A DNA stretch of 59,551 nt, from positions 1 through 59,551 of the forward strand of contig JAFQYG010000007.1 in assembly GCA_017406565.1 (NCBI GenBank), given 5' to 3'. The notes beneath the pieces were generated by a model, which did not search any database, was not told the origin of the DNA, and saw only the letters and a program-made list of their open reading frames with translations. The translations under genes were made by a program, and so were the position numbers. The stretch is from Candidatus Saccharimonadota bacterium (lineage in GTDB: Bacteria; Patescibacteriota; Saccharimonadia; Saccharimonadales; Saccharimonadaceae). Shown here piece after piece: positions 1 through 59,551 of the stretch (within the stretch, counting starts at the first letter, position 1; every line of letters starts with the position of its first letter).

Positions 1-486
1 ATCATTGTCTAATGGAAGGCCTGAATAGTTAGACCAATTAGTGCCACTATCTTCTGAATAGCTATAGCCCCAAGTATTGTCTGTAGTGAGATTTGATAGA
101 CTAGCATTAGTAGCAATACTGGAGAACTTATAGGCTGAGTTAGTTTGATTGACTAAGTCTGTATTAGTAGTCTTTGTACCAGAAGTTGCAGTTAGCACAT
201 AGCCTTGTGAAGCATTAGTAGCTACATTGACATTAATGACATTAGAGTCTGAGACTGAGCCTGGGGAGAGATTATTAATGAGTAGGTCTCCCGAAAGATT
301 AAGTGAGATGGTAGGGTTGAAGGTGAAGCCGACTTCGGCGTTGGAAGAGTAAGTGAGGGCGGAAGAATTGTCGCTAGAATAAAAAAGTACACTTAAAAAA
401 CTTATGGTTATAATTGTTATACTTAAGAGTATGATTTTTTTCGCCCCTGTAATATTGGGATGTATGTTATAACAATTCCTTAACAT
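1..486 (-). CDS. Surface protein, N-terminal part (gene runs off the left edge)
   Basis: The minus frame is open from an ATG at 486 to base 1, giving 162 residues with no stop; the rest lies outside the window. The start MLRNCYNIHPN leads into a hydrophobic segment (about residues 17-37) with basic residues before it, which is a signal peptide or N-terminal anchor. A Ser/Thr/Asn-rich extracellular domain follows. Its phrases ASQGYVLTA, DNTWGYSYS and YSGLPLDND match the order GYTLSAY, DNTWGVAL, VGLPTDI in the FISUMP surface protein at 32234-33886, so the two share an N-terminal module. Role inferred as a cell-surface protein; no catalytic motif is visible. Confidence 0.7.
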   Translation of the reverse strand, partial: MLRNCYNIHPNITGAKKIILLSITIITISFLSVLFYSSDNSSALTYSSNAEVGFTFNPTISLNLSGDLLINNLSPGSVSDSNVINVNVATNASQGYVLTATSGTKTTNTDLVNQTNSAYKFSSIATNASLSNLTTDNTWGYSYSEDSGTNWSNYSGLPLDND

Positions 487-664
487 GATTTTACTAATTA
501 CCAATAAACCTTTTTTATATTTTAACATAAGTTAAATAGTTTTAGCAACTATTATTAATGGGGATTAGAACAGTTTTTACAATAAATGTTTATGTTTTTA
601 TAATTTTTTTCGTTTTTTGTAAAAAGTATGTTACAATAGTAATCAGGAATTGATAATTTCGTAG

Positions 665-693
665 TTGACAGTATAGCAAAACTATGATATTAT
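665..693 (+). promoter_or_regulatory. Promoter of the HARE-HTH regulator gene
   Basis: TTGACA at 665-670, a 17-base spacer and TATTAT at 688-693, preceded by TG one base upstream (extended -10). This is a near-consensus housekeeping promoter about 45 bases before the ATG at 741. The gene reading the other way starts at 486, so 487-740 is a divergent intergenic region. Confidence 0.75.
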
Positions 694-740
694 AGTACAA
701 ATTGTTAATATTAATAGGGGTGGTACAAGGAAAGGTACTG

Positions 741-1769
741 ATGGAGCAGAATGCGGAAATTCTAAAAAATGCAATTGCCGGAAGCCTAAATATCATTGAA
801 CAGGACCGTGAAAAAGAAATCGTTTCGCGTCGTTTTGGACTTAGTGGACCAAAAGAAACCCTTGAACAAATTGGCGAAATGTTGTCAATTACACGCGAAC
901 GTGTTAGACAGCTTGAAAAAGCAATTTTGATCCGTCTCCAAATTTCCGCTGAGGAGAACCAAATACCTGAAATTGCACCAGCTGAGAAACTATTAATCCG
1001 TAATTTGACTGAAATGGGTCGGGTAGCTAGATTAGCTGATCTAGCTGACAAAGTTTATGGACGTGCTACTACCGCCAATGAGCGAACTGGTATCTATTTT
1101 ATCGCAACCTTTTCTAAAGGTCTTACTGTAGTTGAAGAAAATGATCGCTACCATGCAGCTGTTGGTATTTCTGAGTATGGGGATAGCAGAAAAATTCGCG
1201 AACGTGTCGATGAAATTGTCAAAGTAATCAAAGAGAACAAAAAACCGATGACACTCGATGAGCTTGACAGTAAATTAAATTATGAACACCCTGACCATAT
1301 TAAAGCAGTAGCGTCAATTTCAAAGCTATTAGCCACTTTAAATGGTGTGTGGGGTCTAGCAAAATGGCCTTCAGTCAACCCGAAGAACATTCGTGATAAG
1401 ATTTTCGTGATTTTGGAAGCACATAAGGAACCAATGCATTTTTCAGAGATTGCGCGTGAAATTAAAGAATCTAATTTTAAGCGCAAAAATGTTACTGTAC
1501 AGGCAATCCATAACGAATTGATTAAGGATTCGAGATTCGTACTGATCGGGCGTGGTATTTATGCGTTGAGTTCATGGGGATATAAGAAGGGAACTATCTC
1601 AGACATTATTACTCAGATTTTAGAAAAGTCTGAAACTCCTCTCACCCGTGAAGAAATCGTCAAGCAGGTGCTGAGAGTACGCAAGGTAAAAGAAACTACT
1701 ATTTTATTGAATTTACAAAATAAAAAACTGTTTAAGAAAGTCGACAAAAATCTATATACTTTAGCATAA
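741..1769 (+). CDS. Sigma-70 region-4-like / HARE-HTH regulatory protein
   Basis: 342 residues. Residues 20-67 carry a sigma-70 region 4 helix-turn-helix (GLSGPKETLEQIGEML, then TRERVRQLEKAIL), the motif that contacts -35 DNA in sigma factors. The middle and C-terminal parts hold winged-helix repeats. One, about residues 215-280 (PMHFSEIAREI ... GRGIYALSSWG), fits HARE-HTH, a module shared with RNA polymerase delta subunits. No sigma region 2 is present, so it is not a complete sigma factor. I start at 741 because AAGGAAAGG lies just upstream; an in-frame ATG at 702 has no ribosome-binding site. Likely a transcription factor or RNA polymerase accessory protein. It precedes the ATPase gene at 1791 on the same strand. 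Confidence 0.75.
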   Translation: MEQNAEILKNAIAGSLNIIEQDREKEIVSRRFGLSGPKETLEQIGEMLSITRERVRQLEKAILIRLQISAEENQIPEIAPAEKLLIRNLTEMGRVARLADLADKVYGRATTANERTGIYFIATFSKGLTVVEENDRYHAAVGISEYGDSRKIRERVDEIVKVIKENKKPMTLDELDSKLNYEHPDHIKAVASISKLLATLNGVWGLAKWPSVNPKNIRDKIFVILEAHKEPMHFSEIAREIKESNFKRKNVTVQAIHNELIKDSRFVLIGRGIYALSSWGYKKGTISDIITQILEKSETPLTREEIVKQVLRVRKVKETTILLNLQNKKLFKKVDKNLYTLA

Positions 1770-1778
1770 CTATTATGA

Positions 1779-1790
1779 TAAAATAGAGTT
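1779..1790 (+). promoter_or_regulatory. Extended -10 box immediately before the ATPase gene (leaderless start)
   Basis: TG-A-TAAAAT ends at 1784, six bases before the ATG at 1791. RNA polymerase would initiate at or next to the start codon, giving an mRNA without a ribosome-binding site. No Shine-Dalgarno sequence is visible. One of about eleven genes in the window with this arrangement. Confidence 0.55.
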
Positions 1791-4769
1791 ATGGAAGCGA
1801 TTATACATTTTATTCTTATGCCGATATTTTGGATGCCCGTAGTGGCTATTTTGGCGTTTCTCACATATCGTAATTACAAGAAATTGAATTCTCTTAAAGT
1901 GCTAAATGTAGACTCTGTGCTTTTGATGTTAGAAATCCCACGCACAAACGATAAACAAGAACTTGCGGCAGAACAGATGTTTGCTTCACTACATGGAATC
2001 TTGAGGGATAAACAAGAATTAAAAAACTCAGGTGGCGTACAGGAGCATCTATCTTTCGAGATCGTATCAACTGCTGGGCAAATCAGATTTTACGTATGGG
2101 TGCCAAAAGTTCTACAAAGCTTCGTAGAAGGGCAAATCTATTCACAATATCCGACGGTACAAATCTACAAGATGAACGAGGATTATGTAGATAATCGCGA
2201 GAAATATCCTGTGGCCTATATGACCGAGTTAGGCTTAGTTGAGGATGAAGCTCTACCGATTAAGACATTTGAGAGTTTTGAAGTAGATCCATTGGCTGGT
2301 ATTACTGGTACTTTGGCGAAACTTAGTCCTGACCGTTCGGAAGAGTTATGGATTCAAATTTTAGCCAGACCGATTCCAGATGATTGGCATAAGAATACTA
2401 CTGATCGCTGGATCAGACGCATTAAGACTGGTACCAAGTCACTCTTTTCGGGTTCGGGGATTGATTGGACTTGGATAATAGAGGCTCTAGCGGCACTCTT
2501 TAGACCACCAGCTGGTGGGACTAATTCCGAAGTAGTAGTTGAGTTATCTGAACGTGATAAGACAAGAATTGCAAAAGCTGAGGAGAAAGCGACTAAGCTT
2601 GGGTATGAAGTGAAGGTGCGTTTAGCATATCTCGGGCAAAACGACACCGATGCAAAACTCAATATGCAGGCTTTGGTTGGAACATTTAAACAGTTTAATT
2701 CTACCAATTTGAATGGTTTTAAACAGATTGGGGGGAGTTTTAATAAGGTAGATTTGGCTTCTTATAAAATGCGCCAGTTTAGTAATCGCGGTTTTATTTT
2801 GAATATTTCAGAGTTAGCATCGGTGTATCATTTACCTCATACATCGGTAGAAACGCCAAACATCGTCTGGGCTTCATCTAAAACGGCGGAACCACCTTCT
2901 ACTCTACCAGTTTTGACAGGTGAAACCGCCAACGATGAAAATATTTCAGCCTTTGGTTTGACTAATTTCCGCGGGATTAACCATCAATTTGGCTTATTGC
3001 GCCGCGATCGTTCACGTCACGTCTATATTATTGGTCAGACAGGGGCAGGGAAGAGTGGACTTTTGGAATTATTGGCTTTGTCAGACGTATTTTACAACCA
3101 AGGATATTGTATTATCGATCCACATGGGGACTTTGCAATTAATAACTTAAAATTTATCCCTGAATCGCGGATAAAAGATGTGGTTTATTTTAACCCGGCA
3201 GACACTGCGTTCCCTGTTGCGTTTAACCCACTTGAGGTGTCCGACCCAGCCAAAAAGCCTAATATTTGTTCTGAAGTGATTGGCGTATTAAAACGGATGT
3301 TTGGCGATTCGTGGGGTCCTAGGTTGGAGCATATCTTGCGTTATACCCTGCTAGCGTTATTGGATCGTCCAGAAACTACGCTACTAGATATTTCTCGTCT
3401 TTTAACTGATAAAGAATTCCGCAAAGAGACCTTGGAATATTGTAAGGATGTTACGGTTTTGCAATTCTGGAAACACGAATTTGGCCAATGGAATGATAAA
3501 CAAGTAAATGAATCAATTGCTCCGGTGCTAAATAAGGTGGGGGCATTTACAGCTAACCCGATTATCCGCAATATTATTGGCCAGCCAAAATCATCATTCG
3601 ATATTCGTAAAATTATGGATGAAGGTAAAATTCTGGTAGTTAATTTGTCTAAAGGTTTGATTGGTGAGGATAATGCTGGGATATTAGGCGCCTTCCTGGT
3701 AACTAAGGTGCAGCTTGCGGCGATGTCGCGTTCGGATATTCCTGATGTGGCGGATAGGCGTCCATTCTACTTATATGTAGACGAGTTCCAGAATTTTGCG
3801 ACCGATTCATTCGCAGTAATTCTGTCTGAGGCTCGGAAATATGGCTTGAATCTCACAGTGGCTAACCAGTATGTAGCGCAGATGACGGATACAGTGCGTG
3901 ATGCGGTATTTGGCAACGTTGGAACGACGATTTCATTTAGGGTGTCGGCCGAAGATGCGCCAGTTTTAGCTAAACAATTTGAGCCGACCTTCGATGATTC
4001 TGATATTATTCAACTTAACAACCGTCATTTTGTGATTTCGATGATTATTAATGGCGAGAAAGTCCCAGCGTTTTCAGCCACTACTCTTTCGTTACCCGAA
4101 ACGCCTAAGGATAATTTTGAAGCAATTGTGGCTCATTCTAGGGAGTATTATGCTCGTCCTAAGCTCGAAGTTGAGGCTGATATTCGTGATACTATTGAGC
4201 AATCAGAAAAATTCAAGAAGATTTTATCTGATTCAGGTCGACAGGAGCCTAAACTCGTGATTGACACTGATGATAAGCCTGTATTCAAACCCGCAGGGAA
4301 CAACAGACGTTTTATTGACACGTCAAATAAGCCCGAACAAAAACCGAACAGGAATTATTCGACACCACAAGCTGATTTGAAGCGTTCTGGATTAAGTCCA
4401 AATGCGGCTGAAGGTAAAGAACGTCTAGGTCTTAAAGATTTAGCTCGAATGGTAGCGGAAAATGGAGAGGGAAATGTTGAATTTGTTAAGCCAGAGCAAA
4501 AAGGGAAAAACAAACACAAAAAAGGGAAACATAACAAAAAATCTCATAAATCTACCCCTGTAGTTCCCTCTGTTAATAAGGATGAAAAACCTTCTGATTC
4601 TAACCAACCTATCTCCCCTGTTAAACCAGAGGTGGAATATCAGGAAAAATCATCTGTTTCGATCAAACCTTCACATGATAAATTACCCCTGTCTACCCCT
4701 GTAAATCGAGCGGATCATTACGCCGAAAAAGATAATTCGGTAGACGGATTCTTGGCTATAAAGCATTAG
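1791..4769 (+). CDS. Type IV secretion / VirD4-TraG-type ATPase with N-terminal membrane segment
   Basis: 992 residues. A hydrophobic helix lies at residues 7-25. Residues about 30-380 form a large N-terminal region typical of CPR conjugation-type ATPases. The ATPase domain follows: Walker A GQTGAGKS at 415-422, then IIDPHGDF, and Walker B YLYVDEFQNFA with D664-E665. This resembles the HerA/VirD4/TraG family of DNA-pumping ATPases. The last about 200 residues are low-complexity and Lys-rich, including KGKNKHKKGKHNKKSHK, probably disordered and nucleic-acid binding. Likely a membrane-anchored hexameric ATPase that moves DNA or protein. No other secretion genes adjoin it, so the substrate is unknown. 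Reads as leaderless from a -10 box six bases upstream. Confidence 0.75.
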   Translation: MEAIIHFILMPIFWMPVVAILAFLTYRNYKKLNSLKVLNVDSVLLMLEIPRTNDKQELAAEQMFASLHGILRDKQELKNSGGVQEHLSFEIVSTAGQIRFYVWVPKVLQSFVEGQIYSQYPTVQIYKMNEDYVDNREKYPVAYMTELGLVEDEALPIKTFESFEVDPLAGITGTLAKLSPDRSEELWIQILARPIPDDWHKNTTDRWIRRIKTGTKSLFSGSGIDWTWIIEALAALFRPPAGGTNSEVVVELSERDKTRIAKAEEKATKLGYEVKVRLAYLGQNDTDAKLNMQALVGTFKQFNSTNLNGFKQIGGSFNKVDLASYKMRQFSNRGFILNISELASVYHLPHTSVETPNIVWASSKTAEPPSTLPVLTGETANDENISAFGLTNFRGINHQFGLLRRDRSRHVYIIGQTGAGKSGLLELLALSDVFYNQGYCIIDPHGDFAINNLKFIPESRIKDVVYFNPADTAFPVAFNPLEVSDPAKKPNICSEVIGVLKRMFGDSWGPRLEHILRYTLLALLDRPETTLLDISRLLTDKEFRKETLEYCKDVTVLQFWKHEFGQWNDKQVNESIAPVLNKVGAFTANPIIRNIIGQPKSSFDIRKIMDEGKILVVNLSKGLIGEDNAGILGAFLVTKVQLAAMSRSDIPDVADRRPFYLYVDEFQNFATDSFAVILSEARKYGLNLTVANQYVAQMTDTVRDAVFGNVGTTISFRVSAEDAPVLAKQFEPTFDDSDIIQLNNRHFVISMIINGEKVPAFSATTLSLPETPKDNFEAIVAHSREYYARPKLEVEADIRDTIEQSEKFKKILSDSGRQEPKLVIDTDDKPVFKPAGNNRRFIDTSNKPEQKPNRNYSTPQADLKRSGLSPNAAEGKERLGLKDLARMVAENGEGNVEFVKPEQKGKNKHKKGKHNKKSHKSTPVVPSVNKDEKPSDSNQPISPVKPEVEYQEKSSVSIKPSHDKLPLSTPVNRADHYAEKDNSVDGFLAIKH

Positions 4770-5026
4770 AAAATAAAAAAATAACGACCAGGCGGGAATT
4801 ATTAAATAAAAGACGGGAATTAAAAACCATAAATAGCTGGGCTTTGGCTGAATTATGGATTTTTGGCGTGAAGTCTGAATCATGATATTTCTATAAGTCT
4901 AATGTCGCACAATATAGATTTTAAGACATAAGCACTTTGGATTTAAGACGGTTAAGTTATCGTCTTTTAAGGTTAAGTTTTGGCTAGTGGGTGGGAATTA
5001 CGCTATAATATTGTTTATTTGTGTAA
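4770..5026. other. Intergenic region, no gene seen
   Basis: AT-rich spacer after the ATPase gene. A small hairpin sits near 4945-4970 (AAGACG paired with CGTCTT), without a clear T-run. TATAAT at 5004-5009 with TTGGCT about 18 bases upstream could start a transcript into the inverted-repeat element at 5027. No credible ORF. Confidence 0.4.
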
Positions 5027-5257: not shown

Positions 5258-5507
5258 CTACCCCTATAACCCCTATTTTTTACAGGTTTTTGAGCGGATT
5301 TTGGGCCAAATTTGCGAATTTGACATTTCCCCGTTTTTATTTCCCTTTTTGCTTCCCTTCCCTGTAATTTTGCATATTTTGGGCTGGGTTTGGTTTAATT
5401 CTAAGAAAAAAGTTAGAACAAAAACCGAACAAAAATAGGGCATTATTAGAATCGTTTTTGACAGGGGTGGACCTCTGTTGTTTTAGCGTATGATTCCCCT
5501 TTTTTCG
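5258..5507. other. Intergenic region with a small palindrome, no gene seen
   Basis: Contains pyrimidine-rich sequence with three TTCCCT copies near 5341-5362. An interrupted palindrome ACAGGGGTGGACCTCTGT lies near 5461-5478. It could act as a weak terminator for the ftsQ-like gene that ends at 5508. A 61-codon open frame here has no ribosome-binding site and no recognisable sequence. Confidence 0.4.
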
Positions 5508-6161
5508 TTATTTCCAGTAGGCTTTGCCTGGGGTACGTACATCGAGATATTCGAAATCGGTAACCTCTTGGGAACTGAGATAGCGGATAAGTCGATCGGC
5601 ATCTTCAACTGATACAGCGGAGCCACGATCGATAGTCATTTTAATGTAGCCGTTATGGCCTTCGAGATAAAAGTAGACCATACGGATGGAGCCATTGGGG
5701 ATAATTACCTTGGTGGGGTTATAACCTAAGGCTTTAAAATCGACTTCAGCTTGGCCAATATAGGAATTCATTCGGTTGGTAATTTTGCCACCAGTAGAAG
5801 CATTTTCGTCGAGAATTTCAACTGTGGGCTGATAATCGGTATAGTCTTCAATGACTACTTCGTTAATCGGCTCGCCTTTTTGGCTATTGATAAAATTAAA
5901 GCAAAGAATGACTAGGATAATTGCTAATATTGCAAAACCAATCACGGTAAAGGATACGCGCATGGTTTTTTTCTTTTTGTCTTTTTTACGTGCGGCGGCG
6001 CGTTCGTTTTTGGTTTCCAGACGTTCCCTTTTTTCGCCAATAGTTCGACCGGACACAATGGTGGATTTGCGATGCATTCTACGCCTAGCTAATTCTGGGC
6101 GAGCTCTATCGTTCCCTTCTTCTAACACCGTCGCTTGCTCGTGCTTTTCTTTATGAGACAT
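5508..6161 (-). CDS. ftsQ: FtsQ/DivIB-like division protein
   Basis: 217 residues. A long basic cytoplasmic tail (residues 1-68, many Arg and Lys) leads to one membrane helix, about residues 69-89 (VSFTVIGFAILAIILVILCF), then an extracellular domain. The C-terminal FEYLDVRTPGKAYWK resembles the final strand of FtsQ/DivIB (a D-R-x-pGk-type ending). FtsQ bridges the FtsL/B complex and the septal synthase in division. The position at the end of the dcw cluster, overlapping murG by 11 bases, supports this. It is shorter than usual FtsQ (about 250-280) and the POTRA domain is not obvious, so the call leans on topology, ending and context. No ftsA or ftsZ follows. Confidence 0.6.
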   Translation of the reverse strand: MSHKEKHEQATVLEEGNDRARPELARRRMHRKSTIVSGRTIGEKRERLETKNERAAARKKDKKKKTMRVSFTVIGFAILAIILVILCFNFINSQKGEPINEVVIEDYTDYQPTVEILDENASTGGKITNRMNSYIGQAEVDFKALGYNPTKVIIPNGSIRMVYFYLEGHNGYIKMTIDRGSAVSVEDADRLIRYLSSQEVTDFEYLDVRTPGKAYWK

Positions 6162-7392
6162 TCTTCCCCGCCTCCTCTAAAATTATCTCGGCTAGGTTTT
6201 TAGCAGCATCGGAGCGAGCTTCCTTGGCGAGATTATCTGCCATATCGGCACGTAAGCGAGGAGATTTAACGAGATGACGAATCTCTTTAAGCAAAACTGT
6301 AGGATCGTTAACCATTTTGAGATCGTTCACGACAACGGCAGCTTTAGCTTTTTCAAGACGTTCGGCGTTTTTTGTTTGGTGACCACCTGGTAAACGAGCA
6401 AACGGTACTAAAATGGTGGCTTTTTTCAAACCAGCTAGCTCGGCGATAGTGGTGGCTCCAGCACGTGACACAACTACGTCGGCAGCGCCCATTAATTCGT
6501 CCATAGTAGTGTTGAATTCCCACATGCGGAAATTGGATTCGAGTGAAGCTTTATCCCAGTTTTCATAATCTTTAAGATCAATCATATTCTCATAATGCTT
6601 GCGTCCTGCAACTAAACCAACCGAGGTAAATTTGAGCAATTCTGGCAAAATGGTGCGGGTTGCTTCATTGAGATTTTCAGAGCCTTGAGAGCCGCCTGTG
6701 ATAATTACTAATGGTTTTTCTTCATTAAAAGAAAAAGCTTTTTTAAGGGAGAGTTGCTTGGTGCTGCTAACAGGTTTGAATTCTGAGCCTACTGGAATGC
6801 CGGTCCAAATATAGTTAGGGTGAGATTTTTGCGTTTCTTCTGGAATTGGACTACCAAAGGCAACTTTAGCGGCTTTTTTCATCAGCAAACGATTGGCAAG
6901 ACCAGCAACGACATCGGATTCGTGAATAATATATGGAATTTTGAAAAGTTTAGCAACTAACCCAACTGGCAAACAAACATAACCACCTTTTAGAAAGATA
7001 ACATCTGGACGATTTTGTTTATTAACTAAACGTGAAAATGCGGTAATTAACCCAGCCGAAAAACCAAGGAAGCCTAAAATATTACCGATTATTAAATCTT
7101 TAATAGTGATACCAATATGAACAAAATAATCTTTGAGATGCCAATTGGAATAACGGTGGAATTTCCCTGCTGGAATGCGACGGACGCGAATATAAGTAGT
7201 TTTTTTACGGCGAGCCTCTTCGCCCCATGCTACACCAATTTCAGTGGTAAGTTTAGTGACGTTTTTGTAATATTTAAAATCCGTCCAAAATTCAACCTCG
7301 GCACGAGGTTTTTTTTCTAGAATCTCACGAACTACGGCGACGGCTGGTGTAATGTGTCCCCCCGAGCCGCCCCCGACTACTAATATCTTCAT
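6151..7392 (-). CDS. murG: MurG, UDP-GlcNAc:lipid I N-acetylglucosaminyltransferase
   Basis: 413 residues, somewhat longer than typical MurG (about 360). It adds GlcNAc to lipid I to form lipid II on the inner membrane face. The N-terminus MKILVVGGGSGGHITPAVAV carries the diagnostic glycine-rich loop. The C-terminal half has GGSQGSENLN and the nucleotide-sugar signature AGATTIAELAG followed by PGGHQTKNAE. The extra length is in the N-terminal domain around residues 60-110. It overlaps ftsW upstream (68 bases) and the ftsQ-like gene downstream (11 bases), so the three are co-translated. Confidence 0.95.
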   Translation of the reverse strand: MKILVVGGGSGGHITPAVAVVREILEKKPRAEVEFWTDFKYYKNVTKLTTEIGVAWGEEARRKKTTYIRVRRIPAGKFHRYSNWHLKDYFVHIGITIKDLIIGNILGFLGFSAGLITAFSRLVNKQNRPDVIFLKGGYVCLPVGLVAKLFKIPYIIHESDVVAGLANRLLMKKAAKVAFGSPIPEETQKSHPNYIWTGIPVGSEFKPVSSTKQLSLKKAFSFNEEKPLVIITGGSQGSENLNEATRTILPELLKFTSVGLVAGRKHYENMIDLKDYENWDKASLESNFRMWEFNTTMDELMGAADVVVSRAGATTIAELAGLKKATILVPFARLPGGHQTKNAERLEKAKAAVVVNDLKMVNDPTVLLKEIRHLVKSPRLRADMADNLAKEARSDAAKNLAEIILEEAGKNVS

Positions 7393-8554: not shown

Positions 8555-8556
8555 TT

Positions 8557-9579: not shown

Positions 9580-9586
9580 AACCTTA

Positions 9587-11945: not shown

Positions 11946-11955
11946 TTAAGGGAGA

Positions 11956-48324: not shown

Positions 48325-48326
48325 TT

Positions 48327-51497: not shown

Positions 51498-52167
51498 GGT
51501 TGTCTAATCCCGATGTGTATAATGGTTCACATTTATATGTAATGTCATAGTCATCTAAGTTGTAGCCAAGTTCTTTTAGCTTGTCTTTAGCGGTTTGTTC
51601 ATTGCCTCCAGTGTTGTCCTCTATTATAAGGCAAACTGCTTTGTTACAATCATCACGAAGATCTTGTTGAATATTATACTGAACATATTCGCTAAAACCA
51701 TCAGTGTATGCGTCATAATCGAATGGAAGAATATCTATAATACTGATAGCTTTTTCATACTTAGCAATAAATGCCTTAGCAGCTTCGTCATCATCCAAAG
51801 CGACTTTGGTTAAAATATTGGCATCTTCTGGATGAGAATAGTAGTATTCATAACTACCATTTACGTCTAAAAGATAGCCCCATATTTTTGCAAATCCATC
51901 CTTTTCTAGAGTAATGTCATATTCTTTAGTTTGCATATTATCCATTGCAATCTTAACGTGATAATTGCCCGGTAATACATCGTGTTGTTTTTGATTATCA
52001 TACCGTCTTCCGTTTAGAGTGACTATAGCATCCTTTGGTGCTACAAGAATGTCTATTACTGCGGTCTTGGCGAAATGGATGATAATTGCAATCACAACAA
52101 TAGCCACAACTACTAAATTGAGAGTAATTATAGTAGCTATTTTGTGTCGTTTAATAAAATTAAGCAT
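51490..52167 (-). CDS. PEGA-like membrane protein of the hydrolase operon
   Basis: 225 residues. Membrane helix (about 11-33). A PEGA-type beta-domain (VDILVAPKDAIVTLNGRR ... LPGNYHVKIAMDN) follows, then a C-terminal segment (IDILPFDYDAY, CNKAVCLIIED, LKELGYNLDDYDITYKC) that matches the Cys-containing domain of the two small proteins at the far end of the operon. First gene of the unit. TACAAT lies seven bases before the ATG, so the operon mRNA may be leaderless. Probably a surface anchor or partner for the hydrolase. Confidence 0.65.
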   Translation of the reverse strand: MLNFIKRHKIATIITLNLVVVAIVVIAIIIHFAKTAVIDILVAPKDAIVTLNGRRYDNQKQHDVLPGNYHVKIAMDNMQTKEYDITLEKDGFAKIWGYLLDVNGSYEYYYSHPEDANILTKVALDDDEAAKAFIAKYEKAISIIDILPFDYDAYTDGFSEYVQYNIQQDLRDDCNKAVCLIIEDNTGGNEQTAKDKLKELGYNLDDYDITYKCEPLYTSGLDNHE

Positions 52168-52220
52168 TAATATTATTGTACCACAATAGAATGAATACTT
52201 TTTGTGATATAATTGTGGTT

Positions 52221-52454
52221 ATGGATTATTCTTTTAGTATCGGATGGTTATTTGGTGGTATCGCAATTGCGGTGGCAGGGGGTTTAATTGTAATTTTTTA
52301 TAAGCAGATTGCTGACAATTTAGCTAACGGGGTGTCTTCTTATGACCATGTTAAACTATTTGGTGTTATTACAATTATTGTGGGGTTAATTTGCACGGCC
52401 AATTTACATACTTTTGTACTAGGATGGTTAGTGAGTTTAATCTTTGGTCGATAG
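52221..52454 (+). CDS. Small membrane protein
   Basis: 77 residues from the ATG at 52221 (MDYSFSIGWLFGGIAIAVAGG); the longer frame upstream overlaps the promoter. Two hydrophobic helices (about 7-27 and 45-72) joined by a short polar loop. TG-A-TATAAT ends seven bases before the ATG. Divergent from the PEGA gene, with only about 50 bases between the starts. No family recognised. Confidence 0.6.
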   Translation: MDYSFSIGWLFGGIAIAVAGGLIVIFYKQIADNLANGVSSYDHVKLFGVITIIVGLICTANLHTFVLGWLVSLIFGR

Positions 52455-52455
52455 C

Positions 52456-53433
52456 TTAAGGGCGGAAATTATAGTATATTGTACCTGGTGTGAGGTTAGA
52501 GCCTCGTATGTTAGCCAGTTCGGGAATAGTAACAAATTCATAACCGTCTTGACGTAATGTATCAATGAGAGCAGGTACGGCATCTACTGTAGTTGGATAA
52601 ATATCGTGCATTAATATAACTGCCCCATCATGTATTTGATTTTTGGTAGTTGCGATAATAGAGTCGACGTTTTGGCTCTTCCAATCGAGTGTATCTACCG
52701 ACCATAGGATTATCGGCAAGTTAATTGCACTTCTTACGGCATCATTATAATTCCCATAGGGCGGACGTACTAACGTAAGGTCGTGGCCTAATATATTAGA
52801 GTAAACAGATTTTGCTTCATTAATATCGTCTTGCATGGCAGCGGCGGAGATACGAATTAAATTTTGATGGTACATTGTGTGACTAGCGGCAATGTGGCCT
52901 TCTTTTTCGATGCGTTTGGCGAGGTCAGGGTAAGTTCTCATCATACTTCCTAGCATAAAGAAAGTAGCAGGAACGTCTTTAGATTTTAGAATGTCTAGTA
53001 ATCTTGGCGTGGTTAACTCAGATGGACCATCATCGAAGGTGAGAGCAACTAATTTTTTGCCATTTAAGACTCTTTCGGTAACACGAACGTGTTTTGCCAT
53101 AGGAGCAATTTTAATTCTATTAGATTCATCGCTAGTGTGAGAGATAGTCAAATCACATAGATCAAGAACGACGATTATGCCAAATATTAATACTGCAAAA
53201 AGTTTTAACCAAGGAAAACGCGTGTCGAGGCGACGTAAAAACGAACCTTGTAGTTTTTTGGTTGTTACGATAGTAGTAGTTTTTTTGGTTGATGCAGAAG
53301 CGGATGTGAGGGCTTTTTTGCCTCTAGAACGAGAGCGTTTTCTGGCGTTTTCATTTTCAATATAAATAGTGATGGCATGAGCACCGGTACGTCGTTGGAT
53401 TTCTTTAGAGAATAACCTGTCGAGCAAATTCAT
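52456..53433 (-). CDS. Membrane-anchored polysaccharide deacetylase (NodB family)
   Basis: 325 residues. Basic N-terminus, one membrane helix (about 76-95), then the catalytic domain: VALTFDDGPSELTTPRLLD with the Asp-Asp pair, the metal-binding HxxxH as ASHTMYHQNL, PPYGNYN, and VILMHDIYPTT. It removes acetyl groups from surface glycans such as peptidoglycan GlcNAc, which would protect the wall from lysozyme and possibly from the hydrolase encoded nearby. It overlaps the SpoU gene by 29 bases, with AGGAA ten bases before the ATG. Confidence 0.88.
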   Translation of the reverse strand: MNLLDRLFSKEIQRRTGAHAITIYIENENARKRSRSRGKKALTSASASTKKTTTIVTTKKLQGSFLRRLDTRFPWLKLFAVLIFGIIVVLDLCDLTISHTSDESNRIKIAPMAKHVRVTERVLNGKKLVALTFDDGPSELTTPRLLDILKSKDVPATFFMLGSMMRTYPDLAKRIEKEGHIAASHTMYHQNLIRISAAAMQDDINEAKSVYSNILGHDLTLVRPPYGNYNDAVRSAINLPIILWSVDTLDWKSQNVDSIIATTKNQIHDGAVILMHDIYPTTVDAVPALIDTLRQDGYEFVTIPELANIRGSNLTPGTIYYNFRP

Positions 53434-53926
53434 ACATTGCTATTCCTGCGGCAACGCCGACATTAACTGAACGTGTAGAGCCAAAACTCTCAATATATCT
53501 AACATCATGAGATATATTGAGCAATTCTGGAGTGATACCATTATTCTCAGAGCCAAAGATTAACGTAGTATTTGGCTGAAAAATTTTTGAGTTCAAGGGT
53601 TTTGCGCGCTCTGTGTTATTTTCGATAGCTACTAATTCCCTATTTTCCTGTGTTTTTAAGAAGTCTTCAACCGTAGGATGATGCTCAATTTTAAGGTATT
53701 TATCAGTACACATAGCACCACGACGATTGTATTTTTTCTTACCGATAATATGGACTTTTTGAACATTAAAAGAGTTGGCAGTACGGACAATAGAGCCAAT
53801 ATTAAAATCGTGCTCAACATTTTCAATAGCAATCTCAAGCGGAGTACGTTTGGTTTCAAGTGCATCAAAAACTTGTTCATTCTCAAGACCTTTGTACTCA
53901 TCAATTAAATTTCTTGAATCGTCCAT
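53405..53926 (-). CDS. SpoU/TrmH-type RNA 2'-O-methyltransferase
   Basis: 173 residues, SPOUT fold with the trefoil knot: motif 1 NVEHDFNIGSIVRTANSFNV, motif 2 LIFGSENNGITPELL, motif 3 SVNVGVAAGIAMYEFAR. The length matches a short TrmL/TrmH-like enzyme that methylates ribose in tRNA or rRNA. TATAAT seven bases before the ATG suggests leaderless expression. Divergent from the MazG-like gene. Confidence 0.88.
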   Translation of the reverse strand: MDDSRNLIDEYKGLENEQVFDALETKRTPLEIAIENVEHDFNIGSIVRTANSFNVQKVHIIGKKKYNRRGAMCTDKYLKIEHHPTVEDFLKTQENRELVAIENNTERAKPLNSKIFQPNTTLIFGSENNGITPELLNISHDVRYIESFGSTRSVNVGVAAGIAMYEFARQVIL

Positions 53927-53974
53927 ATCTTAAATTATATCATGCTATAATAATATTAACCGATAAGGAGGTAA

Positions 53975-54316
53975 ATGGATTTTGATAAATATCAGCTTAG
54001 AGCTGCGAAATATGATTTATCGGAAAAAACTTCCGATTTGAAAGCTGTGGGTTTTATAGAGAAAGTACTCGGCTTAACCGGTGAAGCGGGTGAAGCAGCT
54101 GATAAAATAAAGAAAATTTTACGAGATAAAGATGGTGTGGTGTCAGAGGAAGATAAGGAGTTGATTGCTAAAGAATTGGGAGACACCTTGTGGTATATTG
54201 CAGCGATTTCGAGGTATTTAGACTTGCCATTGTCTGAGATAGCTGAGGGTAATATAGCCAAATTAGAAAATAGATTTCAGCGTAATAAAATACATGGCGA
54301 GGGGGATAAGCGATGA
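53975..54316 (+). CDS. MazG-like nucleotide pyrophosphohydrolase
   Basis: 113 residues. EKVLGLTGEAGEAADKIKK with the E-x-x-E metal-binding pattern, then KELGDTLWYIAAISRYL (E-x-x-D) and the family's final NIAKLENRFQ. Such enzymes hydrolyse non-canonical NTPs to monophosphate and pyrophosphate. AAGGAGG lies five bases before the ATG, in contrast with the leaderless neighbours. The last four bases overlap the next gene (ATGA). Confidence 0.85.
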   Translation: MDFDKYQLRAAKYDLSEKTSDLKAVGFIEKVLGLTGEAGEAADKIKKILRDKDGVVSEEDKELIAKELGDTLWYIAAISRYLDLPLSEIAEGNIAKLENRFQRNKIHGEGDKR

Positions 54317-55044
54317 GAATACTACAACTAAATATCTGGACCGGACGAATAAAGGGGGCGCTTTTGGATTTTTTGAAGAACAATAAGTTTGATGTAATCT
54401 GTTTACAAGAAGCTGTGTGGAGTATTCGAGATGATGTGCTTGAAAATTTTTGTGCAAGCGTTAGACAAATTAGTGGGGTGAGCGGTCTTTCTTATATTGC
54501 TGAAAGTTCAAATTGGGAGATGGGGTTTTTGGACAGTGATAGCGTTATTAAACAAGGCAATGTGGTGCTTTCACGCGAAGAAATAATTCAGAATAGAGTT
54601 GAAACTGTTTATGGCGGAAAAACAATCGTAAACAAGGCCGATGATTTTAGGGACCATGAGTATACTTTACAGATAATTAAACTTGCTAGTGGACTAAATA
54701 TAGTTAATCATCATGGTTATTGGCTGCCAACTCCGATGGGTGACGATACGACTGTAGCAGTGATGAGAAAAGTAGCAGAGTTTGTTAAAGAATTAAATGG
54801 ACCTTTGGTGATGTGTGGTGATTTAAATATTATTCATAATTCCCCGGCGATGCGCGAGTTGGATTTTCTAAGAGATTTAACCGAAGAATATGGAATAACT
54901 AATACTTTATCTGGTCTAAAATTTAACGGTGAAGTAGCTTGCGACCATATTTTGGTAAATGACAGGATAAAAGTTCGAGATTTTAGAGTGTTAGATGAAA
55001 TTGTTTCAGACCACAAAGGATTGATAGCGGAAATTGATTTTTAG
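54313..55044 (+). CDS. Endonuclease/exonuclease/phosphatase (EEP) family protein
   Basis: 243 residues. LNIWTGRIKGALLDFLKNN, CLQEAVWS (metal-binding Glu), NHHGYWLPTP, CGDLNIIHNSPAM (Asp-Asn) and the final SDHKGLIAEIDF (Asp-His) are the EEP catalytic motifs. Members cut DNA, sugar phosphates or phospholipids. No signal peptide, so an intracellular nuclease or phosphatase. Coupled to the MazG-like gene by a four-base overlap. Confidence 0.85.
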   Translation: MRILQLNIWTGRIKGALLDFLKNNKFDVICLQEAVWSIRDDVLENFCASVRQISGVSGLSYIAESSNWEMGFLDSDSVIKQGNVVLSREEIIQNRVETVYGGKTIVNKADDFRDHEYTLQIIKLASGLNIVNHHGYWLPTPMGDDTTVAVMRKVAEFVKELNGPLVMCGDLNIIHNSPAMRELDFLRDLTEEYGITNTLSGLKFNGEVACDHILVNDRIKVRDFRVLDEIVSDHKGLIAEIDF

Positions 55045-55061
55045 AGAATATACTCATATAT

Positions 55062-55088
55062 AAAAAAGCCCGGGTGGTTAGTCCGGGC
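55062..55088 (-). terminator. Terminator of the 124-residue protein gene
   Basis: Minus strand: GCCCGGACTAACCACCCGGGC then a T6 run. Two further small hairpins (GCCGC/GCGGC and CCC/GGG) lie between it and the stop codon at 55126. Confidence 0.8.
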
Positions 55089-55125
55089 AGAAAGGAGGGC
55101 GCCGCTAAGGGCGGCAAGCATATCC

Positions 55126-55500
55126 CTAACGGGAACTGCTTTTTATAATCGCAGATTTCCTCTCAAGGCAAATTTCACCTCGTTGAGTTTTACAGTTATA
55201 CCTTTTAATAGTAAAGGAGTACGGTAAATACTCTTCTGCAGGACCAAACCTCGCAAATAATTCTCCGCCAATTCGAAGATCGTCTTCGGATTCTTCTGCA
55301 TATCCAATCTCTTGGATAGTCAAAGTATTTATATCGAGTAGATAAGATATGCAGCTATCTGTAGTTGGTGGAGCAGAATATCCTACCACAACATCAAACT
55401 TTATGGGTATAACGACTTGATGCCTATTATAATTGAACGCGTCCAGTATCATGTCTTTATTTGGTCCTTTTACAATGGAATATGTTCTACTTTTTTTCAT
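55126..55500 (-). CDS. Hypothetical 124-residue protein
   Basis: 124 residues, no signal or membrane segment, mixed alpha/beta. Basic ends (MKKSRTYSIVKG and KRYNCKTQRGEICLERK) and an acidic middle (GYAEESEDDLRIGG). AGGAGACT lies upstream of the ATG at 55500. Lies between a converging EEP gene and the nucleosidase gene. Not recognised. The terminator after it supports it being expressed. Confidence 0.5.
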   Translation of the reverse strand: MKKSRTYSIVKGPNKDMILDAFNYNRHQVVIPIKFDVVVGYSAPPTTDSCISYLLDINTLTIQEIGYAEESEDDLRIGGELFARFGPAEEYLPYSFTIKRYNCKTQRGEICLERKSAIIKSSSR

Positions 55501-55637
55501 GTTCAGTCTCCTTTTAATGTGCTACCCATAGGTTTAAGAGAGTTATAATTAAACCCTAATCGGCTAATGTTTATAATTGTATCATACTTTTGTATTTTTG
55601 TCAATATATGGAGTGAGGTCGCCTTAGGCGACCTCTG

Positions 55638-56306
55638 TTAAATTAGTTTGACAATTAGTTTTACACATGATTTTGAGGCATCATGGACATAACGATCGAA
55701 GGCTTCAACATCTTCGTCTACACCGTCTGAGACTGCCTTTATTAAGGTGCATGGTATTCTGTTTCGATTGCAGGTTAAGACGATGCCCGCTGCTTCCATT
55801 TCACAAATATCCGCATTATACTCCCGACGCAATCTTCTTTTTGGTTCCCCTCCTGCAACGATAATATCGGCAGAGGCACAAGTGAACCTAGGGAGGTCTG
55901 CAGTGGCTGAATCTGGAATGGCTGGCAGTATTGGAGTATGGAACATGCCTAGCTTTGGATACTCTCCGACTCTAAAATGACTTCCGAACGAGATATCGAA
56001 GCCATAGTGAACAACTTTTTCAACTATGCCGATTTTCATAGCTGAGCAGTCTTCGGAGAGACCACCAACTACACCATAATTGATAATTTTATCTACCTGA
56101 AAGTTATCAATTAGATATTGGGTGCTAGATGCCGATGAAATTTCACCTACTCCACCTAGAATTAGGTAGACGTATTTTTCTGAATTTATTTTCCACAACG
56201 ATACATCGTAAGCGTTTAATCCTATATGACGCATATCTGGTTGCCCAAACACTTCAAAAAAAGGTCTTCTTTCCTTCTCGGTCGCAACGACAATGCCAAT
56301 CTTCAT
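55638..56306 (-). CDS. MTA/SAH nucleosidase (phosphorylase superfamily)
   Basis: 222 residues from the ATG at 56306 (MKIGIVVATEKERRPFFEVF), set by the strong GGGGGG-type site upstream; the frame before it is spurious. Purine nucleoside phosphorylase fold: GGVGEISSAS, INYGVVGGLS, and the catalytic ICEMEAAGIVLTCNR with Glu-Met-Glu, then KAVSDGVDE with the Asp. It cleaves adenine from 5'-methylthioadenosine or S-adenosylhomocysteine, relieving inhibition of the methyltransferases encoded in the window. Confidence 0.85.
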   Translation of the reverse strand: MKIGIVVATEKERRPFFEVFGQPDMRHIGLNAYDVSLWKINSEKYVYLILGGVGEISSASSTQYLIDNFQVDKIINYGVVGGLSEDCSAMKIGIVEKVVHYGFDISFGSHFRVGEYPKLGMFHTPILPAIPDSATADLPRFTCASADIIVAGGEPKRRLRREYNADICEMEAAGIVLTCNRNRIPCTLIKAVSDGVDEDVEAFDRYVHDASKSCVKLIVKLI

Positions 56307-56466
56307 TATAATCCCCCCTTTTCTTATTAATGTACAAATAAAAATATTATAACACTTTTTTAATAAAATGTCCATAGTAACGGAGTATATTATTATCATA
56401 TTAACCAATAACATAATCCTTTTCAAAATGTGTTATAATTCAATTAAATAATAAGGAAGAAAAGAA

Positions 56467-56781
56467 ATGATTAAAAATCGAAATATTGTAGCAGTGTATT
56501 TATTAACAATATTTACCTTAGGTATATATAGTATATATTGGCAAGTCAAAACGAAAGAAGAGATAAAAAGCCTTGGCGCAGATATACCTACTGCGTGGCT
56601 TTTAATAGTGCCTATCGCTAATATTTATTGGTTATATAAATATGCCGAGGGCTATTCTTCTTATGTGAAGAAAGACAATAACGGAATTCTTTGGTTTATT
56701 GTTTTCTGGCTTATTCCGATAATAATGCCGGCAATTGTACAATCTGATTTGAATAAATTCGCTGGAAAAGAGACAAATTAG
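56467..56781 (+). CDS. DUF4234 membrane protein
   Basis: 104 residues, three hydrophobic segments (8-25, 42-60, 75-93). FTLGIYSIYWQVKTKEEIKSLG and IVPIANIYWLYKYAEGY with the final WLIPIIMPAIVQSDLNKF fit DUF4234. Function unknown. TATAAT about 25 bases upstream and AAGGAAG before the ATG. Confidence 0.8.
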   Translation: MIKNRNIVAVYLLTIFTLGIYSIYWQVKTKEEIKSLGADIPTAWLLIVPIANIYWLYKYAEGYSSYVKKDNNGILWFIVFWLIPIIMPAIVQSDLNKFAGKETN

Positions 56782-56845
56782 CCTAAGTTGATACTACTGT
56801 GGCAGAGGGTTAATTGATAAAAATTGGTGGGCGATAAAATTTGAA

Positions 56846-57727
56846 CTATTGTTTTTTGCGCACCATATGCTGTACACCTTCAGAGCCATCTGGGTAATTC
56901 GGGAATTTATCACCAGATGGTTGAAATCCAAGCTTATCGTATAATTTTCGTGCTCCTGGATGGCTATCTAATACGTCGAGGTGCGCTTCAGTGTATTCTG
57001 GTTTGTCCATGACCGCTTTCATCAATCTACCACCAATGCCATTTGACCTATATTCTTCTCGAACCCCGACAAATTCGATTTCGACTGCACCATCTGGCAA
57101 TTCTGCATCTGTGATTTTTTTCATGTATCCTTCGTTAGCCCTGTCAAAGTTATCCGGTAGCTCTAGCCCAGTCGATTCAAATTTCTTCCTAACTGCCTCT
57201 GTGTCCCAGGGTGTACAATTACTGTCCCTATAAACTACAACACCGACAACGTTGCCTTCTTCATCTTTAGCGACTAAAGTTTTGTCGTAGGAAAAAAGAG
57301 CATTCGGATCATCGGAAAAGATTTCTTTAGCAAAGACTTTAGCTTTTTCTTTATCTTGGAATAAATCTGGGAAAATGTATTGGTCTACTAGAAAGAGTGC
57401 TTCAGCAACTTGTTCAAAATTATCATTAGGAGAAAGATTTGATATTTCAACGCCTAATTTATATTCGTGTTCTTTGGCGGTTTCTAGACTTCGTGTTTTC
57501 TCTTCCCTTGCTCGCTTGGCGGCTTCGGGATCGAATTTTATTCCATTTATGAGACTGTCAAAGGTTGTCTCTTCGGGATTATATTCTTCGTCTTTTTCAT
57601 CAAAGTTGTAGCCATTATCCCAATTTCTACCATCTTTGTTAACTAAAGAATTAGACATGCCGTCTGGTAACTCTTGGTTCCATTCTGGGTTGCTACTTGG
57701 AATGTAGTTTTTTTCTGGACTTTTCAT
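56846..57727 (-). CDS. GNAT-type N-acetyltransferase with an N-terminal extension
   Basis: 293 residues. The C-terminal about 150 residues are a GNAT domain: motif A VGVREEYRSNGIGGRLMKAV binds acetyl-CoA, followed by HLDVLDSHPGARKLYDKLGFQPSG. The first about 85 residues are polar, acidic and probably disordered (DEKDEEYNPEETTFDSL). Acceptor unknown. AGGAGG lies before the ATG and TATAAT upstream of that. Between it and the next gene upstream are a terminator and one copy of a 50-bp repeat. Confidence 0.8.
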   Translation of the reverse strand: MKSPEKNYIPSSNPEWNQELPDGMSNSLVNKDGRNWDNGYNFDEKDEEYNPEETTFDSLINGIKFDPEAAKRAREEKTRSLETAKEHEYKLGVEISNLSPNDNFEQVAEALFLVDQYIFPDLFQDKEKAKVFAKEIFSDDPNALFSYDKTLVAKDEEGNVVGVVVYRDSNCTPWDTEAVRKKFESTGLELPDNFDRANEGYMKKITDAELPDGAVEIEFVGVREEYRSNGIGGRLMKAVMDKPEYTEAHLDVLDSHPGARKLYDKLGFQPSGDKFPNYPDGSEGVQHMVRKKQ

Positions 57728-57864: not shown

Positions 57865-59226
57865 TCATCGCCCATAGCTAGCTAGAAATGCAGCACCACA
57901 ATAGAGCCAAATGTCTTTTTCTCCTGTAGCTTGAATAACTTTATCTGTGAACGAATCGAATATTGATGATTCGTCAGTAGAGTAAGCTTCAATAAAATCA
58001 TCCCAACCAAGCTCCCCACCGCTTAACCTAATAATAAACTCTACCATGTTTTGTTCTCCTTCGTACGAAGAGTGTTGGTTTTTCTCGTCGTTTGTTATTA
58101 CTCGTGCGATATACTCACAACATCCTTCCTGCATGGCTCTTATGGCTGATTTTAGACATCGATAGCTATCAAACGACTTCTGTGACTTGCCTGGCGAGTA
58201 GGTTGGGCGGTTATTAGGATTCATTGTTTTATATCTTCCTTCATCTTCTTCAGAGAGTTTTAATTGATTACCCTCGATACATGCATGCGTTAATTCATGA
58301 TTGAAAATATGGGATGTGCCTTCATTCAAGTCTTCGGGGTCAACAACTATTTTTTCTCCATCAAAATATCCCGCACAGCCGATGCCGATTGTTTCGAAAC
58401 CATCACTGAGAAAGGCTGGGATTTCATCTATTATGTTAATCTTTTCAAGACAACTATTTGGTAACTGTCTACTCTTAACTAGTTCCTTCAGACGTTCTTT
58501 ATATGTTTGTTTTAATAGCGGAACTTTTTCGGAATAATCTGCCTCAGCAATTGCGTGAAAATGATTGTGCCAGCGGAGAAATTTCCTGAATGCCTCTGTA
58601 CCTAAAGTATAATCTCCAGAATCATCTTTATTCAATAAGACAGTAAAGAAGTCTATTTCTCCGTTTTTCGTATTCTTCTTCATCATCTCTAAATCATCTG
58701 GCAGGCTCCACATATTAAGGATTTTGTTAATCTTTTTCTTTTGTTTTTGATTAAGCGATTCCAGTTTCTCCCTATAGTATTCTGGGTCAATTACTCTTAA
58801 TCGGTCAAGATCGCGTGTCGTTTCATTTTTAATTCTATCCGCCATATCTGAAGCTCGTATGTTTGTAATATCTCGTACACCTAGTACATGTTTGACATAG
58901 CCAACAATCTTTTGTGGTGCATCTTCTTCCCACTCTATAAGATCCTTTTCTCTAAGGCTAATATCTAAAACTTTATTTCTATTTTTAGCTAGGCTCGATG
59001 AGTGTGCCCTGCTTTGGTCATATTGATTAAGTGCATCCAGGTAACTTAGATCATCATATAGTGCTGCTTTTCCCAGGGTATGGATGTTTTTAGAAGTAAT
59101 ATGTTTAAGGTCGTAACCATTAATTATTTCTTGGTTGTTTACGTTGAGTACTTTATTGCCACGTGAATAATCCTTGGTGCGATTCTCGTTCTCATAATTT
59201 AGAGATGGTTTATTATGATTATTCAT
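57865..59226 (-). CDS. Putative metalloprotease-like protein (HEXXH)
   Basis: 453 residues from the ATG at 59226 (MNNHNKPSLNYENENR); TATAAT is six bases upstream, and the longer frame starts inside it. No signal peptide. The N-terminal about 200 residues are helical and charged. About two thirds in, HIFNHELTHACIEGNQL supplies HELTH, a zinc-protease motif, preceded by GYFDGEKIVVDPED, which resembles a strand before the active site. A later IRAMQEGCCEYIARVI could give the third ligand Glu, as in gluzincins. No family is recognised with certainty. It sits between two copies of a 50-bp repeat, next to 16S rRNA. Confidence 0.6.
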   Translation of the reverse strand: MNNHNKPSLNYENENRTKDYSRGNKVLNVNNQEIINGYDLKHITSKNIHTLGKAALYDDLSYLDALNQYDQSRAHSSSLAKNRNKVLDISLREKDLIEWEEDAPQKIVGYVKHVLGVRDITNIRASDMADRIKNETTRDLDRLRVIDPEYYREKLESLNQKQKKKINKILNMWSLPDDLEMMKKNTKNGEIDFFTVLLNKDDSGDYTLGTEAFRKFLRWHNHFHAIAEADYSEKVPLLKQTYKERLKELVKSRQLPNSCLEKINIIDEIPAFLSDGFETIGIGCAGYFDGEKIVVDPEDLNEGTSHIFNHELTHACIEGNQLKLSEEDEGRYKTMNPNNRPTYSPGKSQKSFDSYRCLKSAIRAMQEGCCEYIARVITNDEKNQHSSYEGEQNMVEFIIRLSGGELGWDDFIEAYSTDESSIFDSFTDKVIQATGEKDIWLYCGAAFLASYGR

Positions 59227-59239
59227 ATTTCTATTATAA

Positions 59240-59266
59240 CAAAAATCCACCTGTGAAGGCGGATTG
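59240..59266 (-). terminator. Terminator downstream of 16S rRNA
   Basis: Minus strand: AATCCGCCT-TCAC-AGGTGGATT with T5. Nine-bp stem with one wobble. It separates the 16S transcript from the protein gene at 59226. Confidence 0.8.
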
Positions 59267-59313
59267 TTTTAACAACTTAGTTGTGCAATTATCATTTCAG
59301 TGTAAAGCTTAAG
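59264..59313. repeat. 50-bp direct repeat, copy 2
   Basis: Identical to 57774-57823. Located about 110 bases after the 16S 3' end. The region 59314-59423 between holds two hairpins (CTGGT/ACCAG and GTTATGATT/AATCATAAC) and no tRNA. Confidence 0.85.
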
Positions 59314-59423
59314 GTTACGTCTGGTAAAACCAGAGTTGTTATGATTCAAGCTTGCAAATCATAACACGTATTCGACCTTGCTACCTGCGACTTTACAGTT
59401 TCAGGCGCATAATTCCTTCTCAA

Positions 59424-59551
59424 GAAAGGAGGTAATCCATCCACACGTTCTCGTACGGATGCCTTGTTACGACTTAACCCCAATCATCTCCCCCACCTTA
59501 GGCCGACGAATCGGACTTCGGGTGTTGGTGACTCTCATGGTTTGACGGGCG
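59424..59551 (-). rRNA. rrs: 16S rRNA, 3' end (gene extends beyond the window)
   Basis: Minus strand reads CGCCCGTCAAACCATGAGAG, then AACACCCGAAGTCCGA, AGTCGTAACAAGGCATCCGT and finally GTGTGGATGGATTACCTCCTTTCT. This is the 16S decoding-site helix 44 and anti-Shine-Dalgarno. CCCGTCAAACCATG and GGCATCCGTA differ from most bacteria and match Saccharibacteria as I know them. The anti-SD CCTCC fits the AGGAGG sites seen here. No 23S follows in the downstream direction. Confidence 0.95.

Follow-up and report, generated by a model that had tools for sequence, protein, structure and literature searches.

The contig JAFQYG010000007.1 of a Candidatus Saccharimonadota bacterium (assembly GCA_017406565.1), analyzed here over its whole length of 59,551 nucleotides and referred to below as the window, carries a short polar word, TTCCCT on its forward strand and AGGGAA on the reverse, nearly all of whose copies (52 of 55) have AGGGAA pointing toward a single dif-like site. 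We consider it very likely that AGGGAA is the FtsK-orienting polar sequence (KOPS) equivalent of this lineage of Saccharibacteria, with FtsK, we infer, as the protein that binds it. The word is over-represented, polar and independent of genes and codons; it converges with a switch of strand on a conserved dif-like site and is densest beside that site, and the host encodes an FtsK with a gamma domain together with Xer-type recombinases. In the KOPS systems that serve as the model, as described in PMC5357621 and PMC5052618, the FtsK gamma domain loads the pump toward dif, where Xer resolves chromosome dimers. By analogy FtsK would read AGGGAA and Xer would recombine the dif-like site; the word most likely works like KOPS, while KOPS status in the strict sense depends on binding by FtsK.

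A polar hexamer converging on a dif-like site

Exact counting gives 48 TTCCCT and 7 AGGGAA in the window, figures identical to those that a preliminary description had reached by eye, where 15.9 and 15.5 copies would be expected on the two strands under a first-order Markov model. No other hexamer of the window has so large a strand skew (z 5.5), and the runner-up, TCCCTG (4.0), overlaps TTCCCT. The smaller tallies of that description were likewise reproduced: the base after TTCCCT is G in 19 cases and T in 15 (C in 10, A in 4), CTCCCT and AGGGAG show no such bias (5 and 10), and three AGGGAA (4468, 4502 and 4523) lie in the part of the gene at 1791-4769 that encodes a Lys/Gly-rich tail. Among the 18 one-letter variants of TTCCCT in the window, TTCCCC (10:2) and TCCCCT (6:2) are plainly skewed in the same direction and the rest little or not at all. 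In co-oriented stretches of the host genome seven-letter forms are polar with any of several neighboring bases on either side, and the word is therefore taken to be six letters long. The host genome (G000; 815,352 bases in seven contigs, of which the window is C7) holds 384 copies of TTCCCT, 148 forward and 236 reverse, in long single-strand runs that change between contigs. Over 612 kb of co-oriented host stretches AGGGAA:TTCCCT is 295:35 and the word is the top hexamer by both z and ratio, a ranking that is partly circular since these stretches were turned by the word itself; later tests therefore use an independent landmark, the dif-like site, and are not circular. Some scans of switches and skew relied on non-overlapping matching and miss overlapping copies of the word, two of which lie in the window (5358 and 10234).

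The dif-like site was noticed by eye on comparing the points of convergence in host C7 and in contig C2 of G201, a genome of the same genus (three contigs, sampled in stretches). It has the form expected of dif, 28 bp with two inverted 11-bp arms and a 6-bp center, and is present in a single copy in the host genome. Relative to it, 52 of the 55 words in the window have AGGGAA pointing to the site and 3 point away, six of the seven AGGGAA lie on the other side of it from the TTCCCT arm, and AGGGAA is the top window hexamer on this axis (z 6.6; next 4.2). The features are as follows:

4902..4929, forward strand: dif-like site ATGTCGCACAA-TATAGA-TTTTAAGACAT (11-6-11, 28 bp), the convergence point of the word
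1588..4528, forward strand: left arm, six AGGGAA pointing right to dif (1588, 3047, 4295, 4468, 4502, 4523)
5341..57508, reverse strand: right arm, 46 TTCCCT on the forward strand (AGGGAA on the reverse) pointing left to dif
3210..3215, forward strand: exception, a TTCCCT left of dif that points away
4564-4569, forward strand: exception, a second TTCCCT left of dif that points away
18688..18693, forward strand: exception, the sole AGGGAA right of dif
1791..4769, forward strand: gene adjoining dif, a VirD4/TraD-like ATPase (Pfam TrwB_AAD_bind, DUF87, TraG-D_C and T4SS-DNA_transf above cut-offs)

Three of the right-arm words are packed into the intergenic stretch 5341-5363. The convergent switch falls at about 4.5 kb in host C7 and at about 87 kb in G201 C2, a place that aligns with about 4 kb of host C7, and the sampled stretches of G201 C2 hold 107 words toward dif and 6 away. 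Within 1 kb of dif the density is 4.0 words per kb in both the window and G201. From 1 to 40 kb it is 0.5-2.0 per kb in the window and 0.5-1.5 in G201; beyond 20 kb the ranges are 0.34-0.90 and 0.28-0.57, and beyond 40 kb the values are 0.34 and 0.28-0.46, respectively. Of the three functions that the preliminary description had proposed for such a word, namely Chi-type recombination sites, FtsK-orienting sites and DNA-uptake words, the second is favored by this switch of strand at the dif-like site in the window and its relatives.

The site itself is well conserved. All 21 fixed positions are matched in the window, where the best match in three random 800-kb sequences has 16, and a scan of the sampled sequence returned four matches at 20-21 of 21 with the next best at 17. 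Two of the four are the sites of the host and G201; the other two, G106:342091 and G167:216443, came up unasked in two other genera, at or close to the word switches of those genomes; the sampled stretches of G138 contain no dif-like site, and the order-wide pattern search gives one match in that genome. Among 113 genomes of the genus, each at least 90% complete, the pattern with at most one mismatch occurs in 105 (exactly once in 99, two or more times in 6, not at all in 8), and its reversed control in none. With up to two mismatches it occurs in 236 of 244 genomes sampled within the order, the reversed control matching 32 of the 244. A search with one exact 26-base form matched 21 stretches of a named genome collection, all titled Candidatus Saccharibacteria, and 12 of these titles name gut samples from goat, sheep, roe deer, yak or water buffalo. 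Four dif query strings (those of E. coli and B. subtilis and two generic forms) found nothing convincing in the host genome.

Convergence on dif extends to these further genomes. For the genus we took 3-kb loci (1.5-kb flanks), 30 among the loci listed, and left out the host's own (L143); the other 29 hold 211 words toward dif and 21 away (2.67 words per kb), each of the 29 being positive, with ratios of 112:14 in genes facing dif, 19:2 in those facing away and 80:5 in sequence outside genes. For other families, 28 of 30 among the loci listed were whole (L170 and L172, at contig ends, were left out) and hold 59 words toward dif and 7 away at 0.79 per kb, 21 loci leaning toward dif, 4 equal and 3 against. 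Over longer distances, a 554-kb contig of G186, again of the same genus, shows one word orientation in all 14 bins of its seven sampled stretches, so the two arms must be unequal in that genome. Such constancy bears on the proposal that AGGGAA is a DNA-uptake word, which its shortness and frequency would suit and for which competence genes are presumably available in this group. A word serving uptake needs neither a fixed strand over hundreds of kb nor a switch at dif; because the orientation is fixed over such distances we reject this function, which we rate as exceedingly improbable.

The gene adjoining dif belongs to the VirD4/TraD-like ATPases by Pfam, every NCBIfam match falling below its cut-off, and a homologue also flanks dif in G201 (blastn of G201 C2 against host C7). 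As a separate observation, G158 and G182 contain additional near-dif sites, nine in the former and six in the latter, that have the form GTCGCACAA-n6-TTGTACGAC. In G158 they include two pairs in inverted orientation, spaced by about 1.3 kb, an arrangement like that of mobile dif modules or of elements that exploit Xer.

Independence from genes, codons and composition

In genes on the minority strand the word follows the orientation of the region and not the strand of the gene. Synonymous codons were permuted within each gene, so that protein and codon usage were retained, and the words counted again: window genes facing away from dif hold 17 words against 2.1 expected (0 of 500 shuffles reach 17), host genes facing away hold 70 properly oriented words against 26.2 (0 of 100 shuffles reach 70), and host genes along the arm hold 191 against 102.2. 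Outside called genes the ratio of proper to improper words is 38:4 in the host genome and 6:0 in the window. The claim that the bias is independent of gene direction and also holds in intergenic DNA is borne out by these counts and by the minority-strand genes, and codon use, named in advance as something that might explain the bias away, is rejected by the codon shuffle.

A word that arose from strand-biased mutation, from the orientation of genes or from codon choice might look similar in much of the genome, since AGGGAA lies on the G-rich strand in C1 to C5 and most genes are co-directed with it in most contigs. The codon shuffle refutes this origin, to which we give almost no credence, and polarity also persists where the base composition is turned around: the strand carrying the word in C6 (13-133 kb) and C7 is the C-rich one by four-fold sites, and the polarity there is undiminished, with 31 words against 5.1 expected in genes facing away, 81 against 25.0 in genes along the arm, and 15:0 outside genes. 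Nor do words of similar make-up fully share its axis in the window and G201. AGGGAG, AGGGAC, AGGGAT and ACGGAA do not follow it, and the partial followers are GGGGAA (47:10), which is the closest variant, AGGGGA (31:10) and AAGGAA (141:53).

The dif axis, the GC-skew axis and the divergent pole

Two relatives assembled as one contig each have dif well away from the GC-skew terminus. In G106 (1,081,308 bases, dnaA at 367) the skew changes sign between the 495-515 and 550-570 kb stretches and dif lies at 342 kb; in G167 (971,550 bases, dnaA at 507.7 kb) the change falls at 20-50 kb and dif at 216 kb. The gap amounts to about 16-20% of the genome, so that dif is not found at the skew terminus in either. 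The usual distance in Proteobacteria and Firmicutes is given as 0-1.39% of the genome (one sigma), with outliers under 3%, in the account of PMC3025954. In three sampled stretches of the interval from dif to the skew terminus, words toward and away from dif number 15:0 in G106 and 8:2 in G167. Over all sampled stretches the origin-dif axis scores 55:13 in G106 against 40:28 for the origin-skew axis, and in G167 66:31 against 61:36, a weak contrast.

These counts bear directly on a function as Chi, in which a RecBCD/AddAB-like helicase-nuclease would recognize AGGGAA and fork direction would set the orientation of the word. Like Chi, the word is short, G-rich, frequent and polar, and for the most part it runs in the direction of the genes. 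One host protein (an open frame of 1,095 amino acids) has a PDDEXK_1 nuclease domain of RecB/AddAB type, so Chi is not to be dismissed for want of an enzyme. It fits worse than an FtsK-orienting word because, in genomes where dif and the GC-skew terminus are apart, polarity keeps to dif: the word switches strand at dif, all 15 intervening words in G106 and 8 of 10 in G167 point to it, the axis scores favor it (clearly in G106, weakly in G167), and word density peaks there. The argument holds if fork direction can be read from GC skew; PMC5993296 rates pentamer counts as more robust indicators of replication breakpoints than skew. The nuclease protein is a candidate component of a RecBCD- or AddAB-type enzyme, and the orientation of the words, with skew as the guide to forks, runs against Chi, which we regard as unlikely. 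We also discarded the idea that the word is a mere leading-strand marker of replication as read from GC skew, with which it disagrees in C6 (13-133 kb), in C7, in most of sampled G201 and in parts of G106 and G167.

The position of dif relative to dnaA could be read in four of nine single-contig genomes, those with both places on record. If each contig is treated as a closed circle, the distance between the two is 30-34% of the circle, in each case in the direction of dnaA transcription: 31.6% in G106, 30.0% in G167, 33.0% in G058 (of another family) and about 34% in G164 (length rounded). Within the genus of the window (G000, G201 and G186) four-fold sites show a GC skew that is mostly very strong (0.16 to 0.8) and whose axis is off the word axis, with no flip of skew at dif in G201. 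In the host just 4.9 kb of sequence lie to the left of dif for such a comparison.

The word has a second, divergent pole. In host C6 (L012) a TTCCCT run ends at 12514 and an AGGGAA run starts at 13274, and in G201 C3 (L117) the corresponding switch falls between 102964 and 103304. By eye, valS-like and femAB-like genes flank the pole in both genomes, which have a short promoter-like stretch in common there; Rfam returned only four tRNAs, several kb off, from both 20-kb stretches, and one TTATCCACA lies at the pole in G201 only. The distance from the pole to dnaA is 62 kb in G201 and about 21 kb in the host if C5 and C6 abut, as we suppose. A classical recF-dnaN-dnaA / rpmH-rnpA-yidC-jag order (by eye, with dnaA identified by Pfam) is found at about 7750 of host C5 (L011), with TTTTCCACA, and neither GC skew nor the word changes at this dnaA-rpmH locus. 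The pole was considered as a possible origin; an exact-box scan found no cluster of DnaA boxes there, nor at the dnaA locus or in any other of the host stretches. The expectation in the preliminary description that orientation would switch at origin and terminus thus held in part, with a sharp switch at dif, none at the host dnaA locus, and a second switch that is 62 kb from dnaA in G201.

The sharp and dense second pole is something that FtsK alone does not explain, and it speaks in favor of an architecture-imparting sequence (AIMS) with some other function and a reader other than FtsK, such as a condensin loader or a terminus organizer. AGGGAA agrees with AIMS in its strand bias and in a density gradient toward the terminus; it differs in being a hexamer and in having an axis that tracks dif rather than the GC-skew terminus. 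We know of no other reader of a word that converges on dif in this way, and in genomes that encode an FtsK gamma domain such a word is most simply a KOPS, which leaves an AIMS-like role very unlikely. AIMS proper are octamers defined on the leading strand, as described in PMC5993296; here the leading strand is ambiguous wherever the skew and dif axes part.

FtsK, Xer and comparison with known orienting words

The host FtsK is encoded at 28 kb of C6 and carries the gamma domain (Pfam FtsK_gamma), as do FtsK proteins in 107 of the 113 genus genomes. It matches solved FtsK at E 5e-115 and its motor aligns well with that of P. aeruginosa (2iut). In the gamma domain, P. aeruginosa QRKLKIGYNRAARMIEAMEM (2iut) corresponds to QTWLGKGHGFVAGLAIWLEE in the host and P. 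aeruginosa YNRAARMIEAMEM aligns with host HGFVAGLAIWLEE; among the three genomes compared for this helix (host, G138 and G240), the corresponding stretch reads QRRLRIGYARAARIIEEME in G138, of another genus, and QTYLSKGHGYVSRLAIWLEE in G240, a second member of the genus of the window. In PMC5052618, contact with both KOPS DNA and XerD is ascribed to helices 2 and 3, at their ends, and to the loop between them; we read the changed stretch as probably this contacting surface. Two tyrosine recombinases are encoded, at 43 kb of C6 and 238 kb of C2, both above the NCBIfam cut-off for the XerA type and below those of the XerC and XerD equivalogs. The one in C6 is the likelier, though unproven, candidate for the dif recombinase because the one in C2 sits between two hsdS-like genes (by eye). 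The arrangement of the latter locus (L191, 237-240.5 kb) is that of invertible type I restriction loci.

A mechanism may be proposed from these components. The AGGGAA copies along both arms, each with its 5'-AGGGAA-3' direction aimed at the single dif site (4902-4929 of the window), would be bound by the gamma domains of the septal DNA pump FtsK. Bound gamma would load the FtsK motor in the direction of AGGGAA, so that each arm would be pumped toward dif, where an Xer recombinase would resolve chromosome dimers.

The likeness to the KOPS of E. coli and P. aeruginosa (GGGNAGGG) lies in polarity toward dif on both arms, higher density near dif, an FtsK gamma domain and an AGGG core. The differences are that the word here is a hexamer, that it has a second dense, divergent pole, that dif is off the GC-skew terminus in two relatives, and that the FtsK stretch noted above departs from that of P. 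aeruginosa. In B. subtilis the SpoIIIE recognition sequence (SRS), GAGAAGGG, works with SpoIIIE and SftA; it is likewise a G-rich polar word directed toward dif, but an octamer of other sequence. Lactococcus lactis has a KOPS and XerS system of its own. As described in PMC5357621, that system resembles the present one in combining a lineage-specific word with a diverged FtsK gamma domain, and it differs in the word, an A-rich heptamer, and in XerS/difSL, the dif here having the standard 28-bp 11-6-11 form. At 384 copies in 815 kb, AGGGAA is about six times as frequent as the one KOPS per 13 kb given in PMC5357621.

Several observations weigh against AGGGAA as the KOPS word of this lineage. The word is a hexamer and not the E. 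coli-type sequence GGGNAGGG; known KOPS differ between lineages, and this mismatch therefore bars the E. coli type only. FtsK_gamma scores are 31-43 bits in nearly all members of the genus, and the gamma helix lacks the YNRAAR of P. aeruginosa in both genus members compared. Wrong-way words in genes along the arm are barely depleted (20 against 27.1 expected, 10 of 100 shuffles being as low). The dif pattern has no match in 8 of the 113 genus genomes, and the 29 genus loci are kin: 131 of 210 words have no close counterpart in another of these loci, and the others may be shared by descent. The single orientation kept along the 554-kb contig of G186 also counts here. A local convergent cluster of 5 AGGGAA and 6 TTCCCT occurs at C4:22000-27000, where there is no dif-like site and where the genes look by eye to be polysaccharide-related. 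The divergent switch is as sharp as the one at dif, with densities within 1 kb of 3.0 (G000) and 4.0 (G201) words per kb. In the other genera G106, G138 and G167 the word is weaker (144:49 in called genes), and a scan for a stronger word there placed GCGGGG and GGTGAG above it, a ranking for which the dif position of G138 was assumed and the origin-spanning stretches of G138 and G167 were excluded. One masked stretch of G167 was dropped from the analysis as well.

Within our literature search, which was limited and had most subscription papers outside it, this is the first candidate KOPS word and dif site found for Saccharibacteria. A broader reading, plausible but held tentatively, is that in Saccharibacteria the axis of segregation (dif, the KOPS word and most genes) is uncoupled from the axis of replication as seen in GC skew, with dif about a third of the circle from dnaA. 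In the genus of the window, skew would then follow neither dif nor the dnaA locus, the divergent pole would be a second specialized site, and FtsK gamma may have rewritten its reading helix along with the word. If dif does lie about a third of the circle from dnaA, part of one arm would be copied one way and pumped the other. The distance between dif and the GC-skew terminus makes it directly testable in Saccharibacteria whether forks end at dif, and the changed gamma domain offers a testable case of co-evolution between the reading helix of FtsK and its word. The orientation of the word also provides a practical means to orient the contigs of such genomes.

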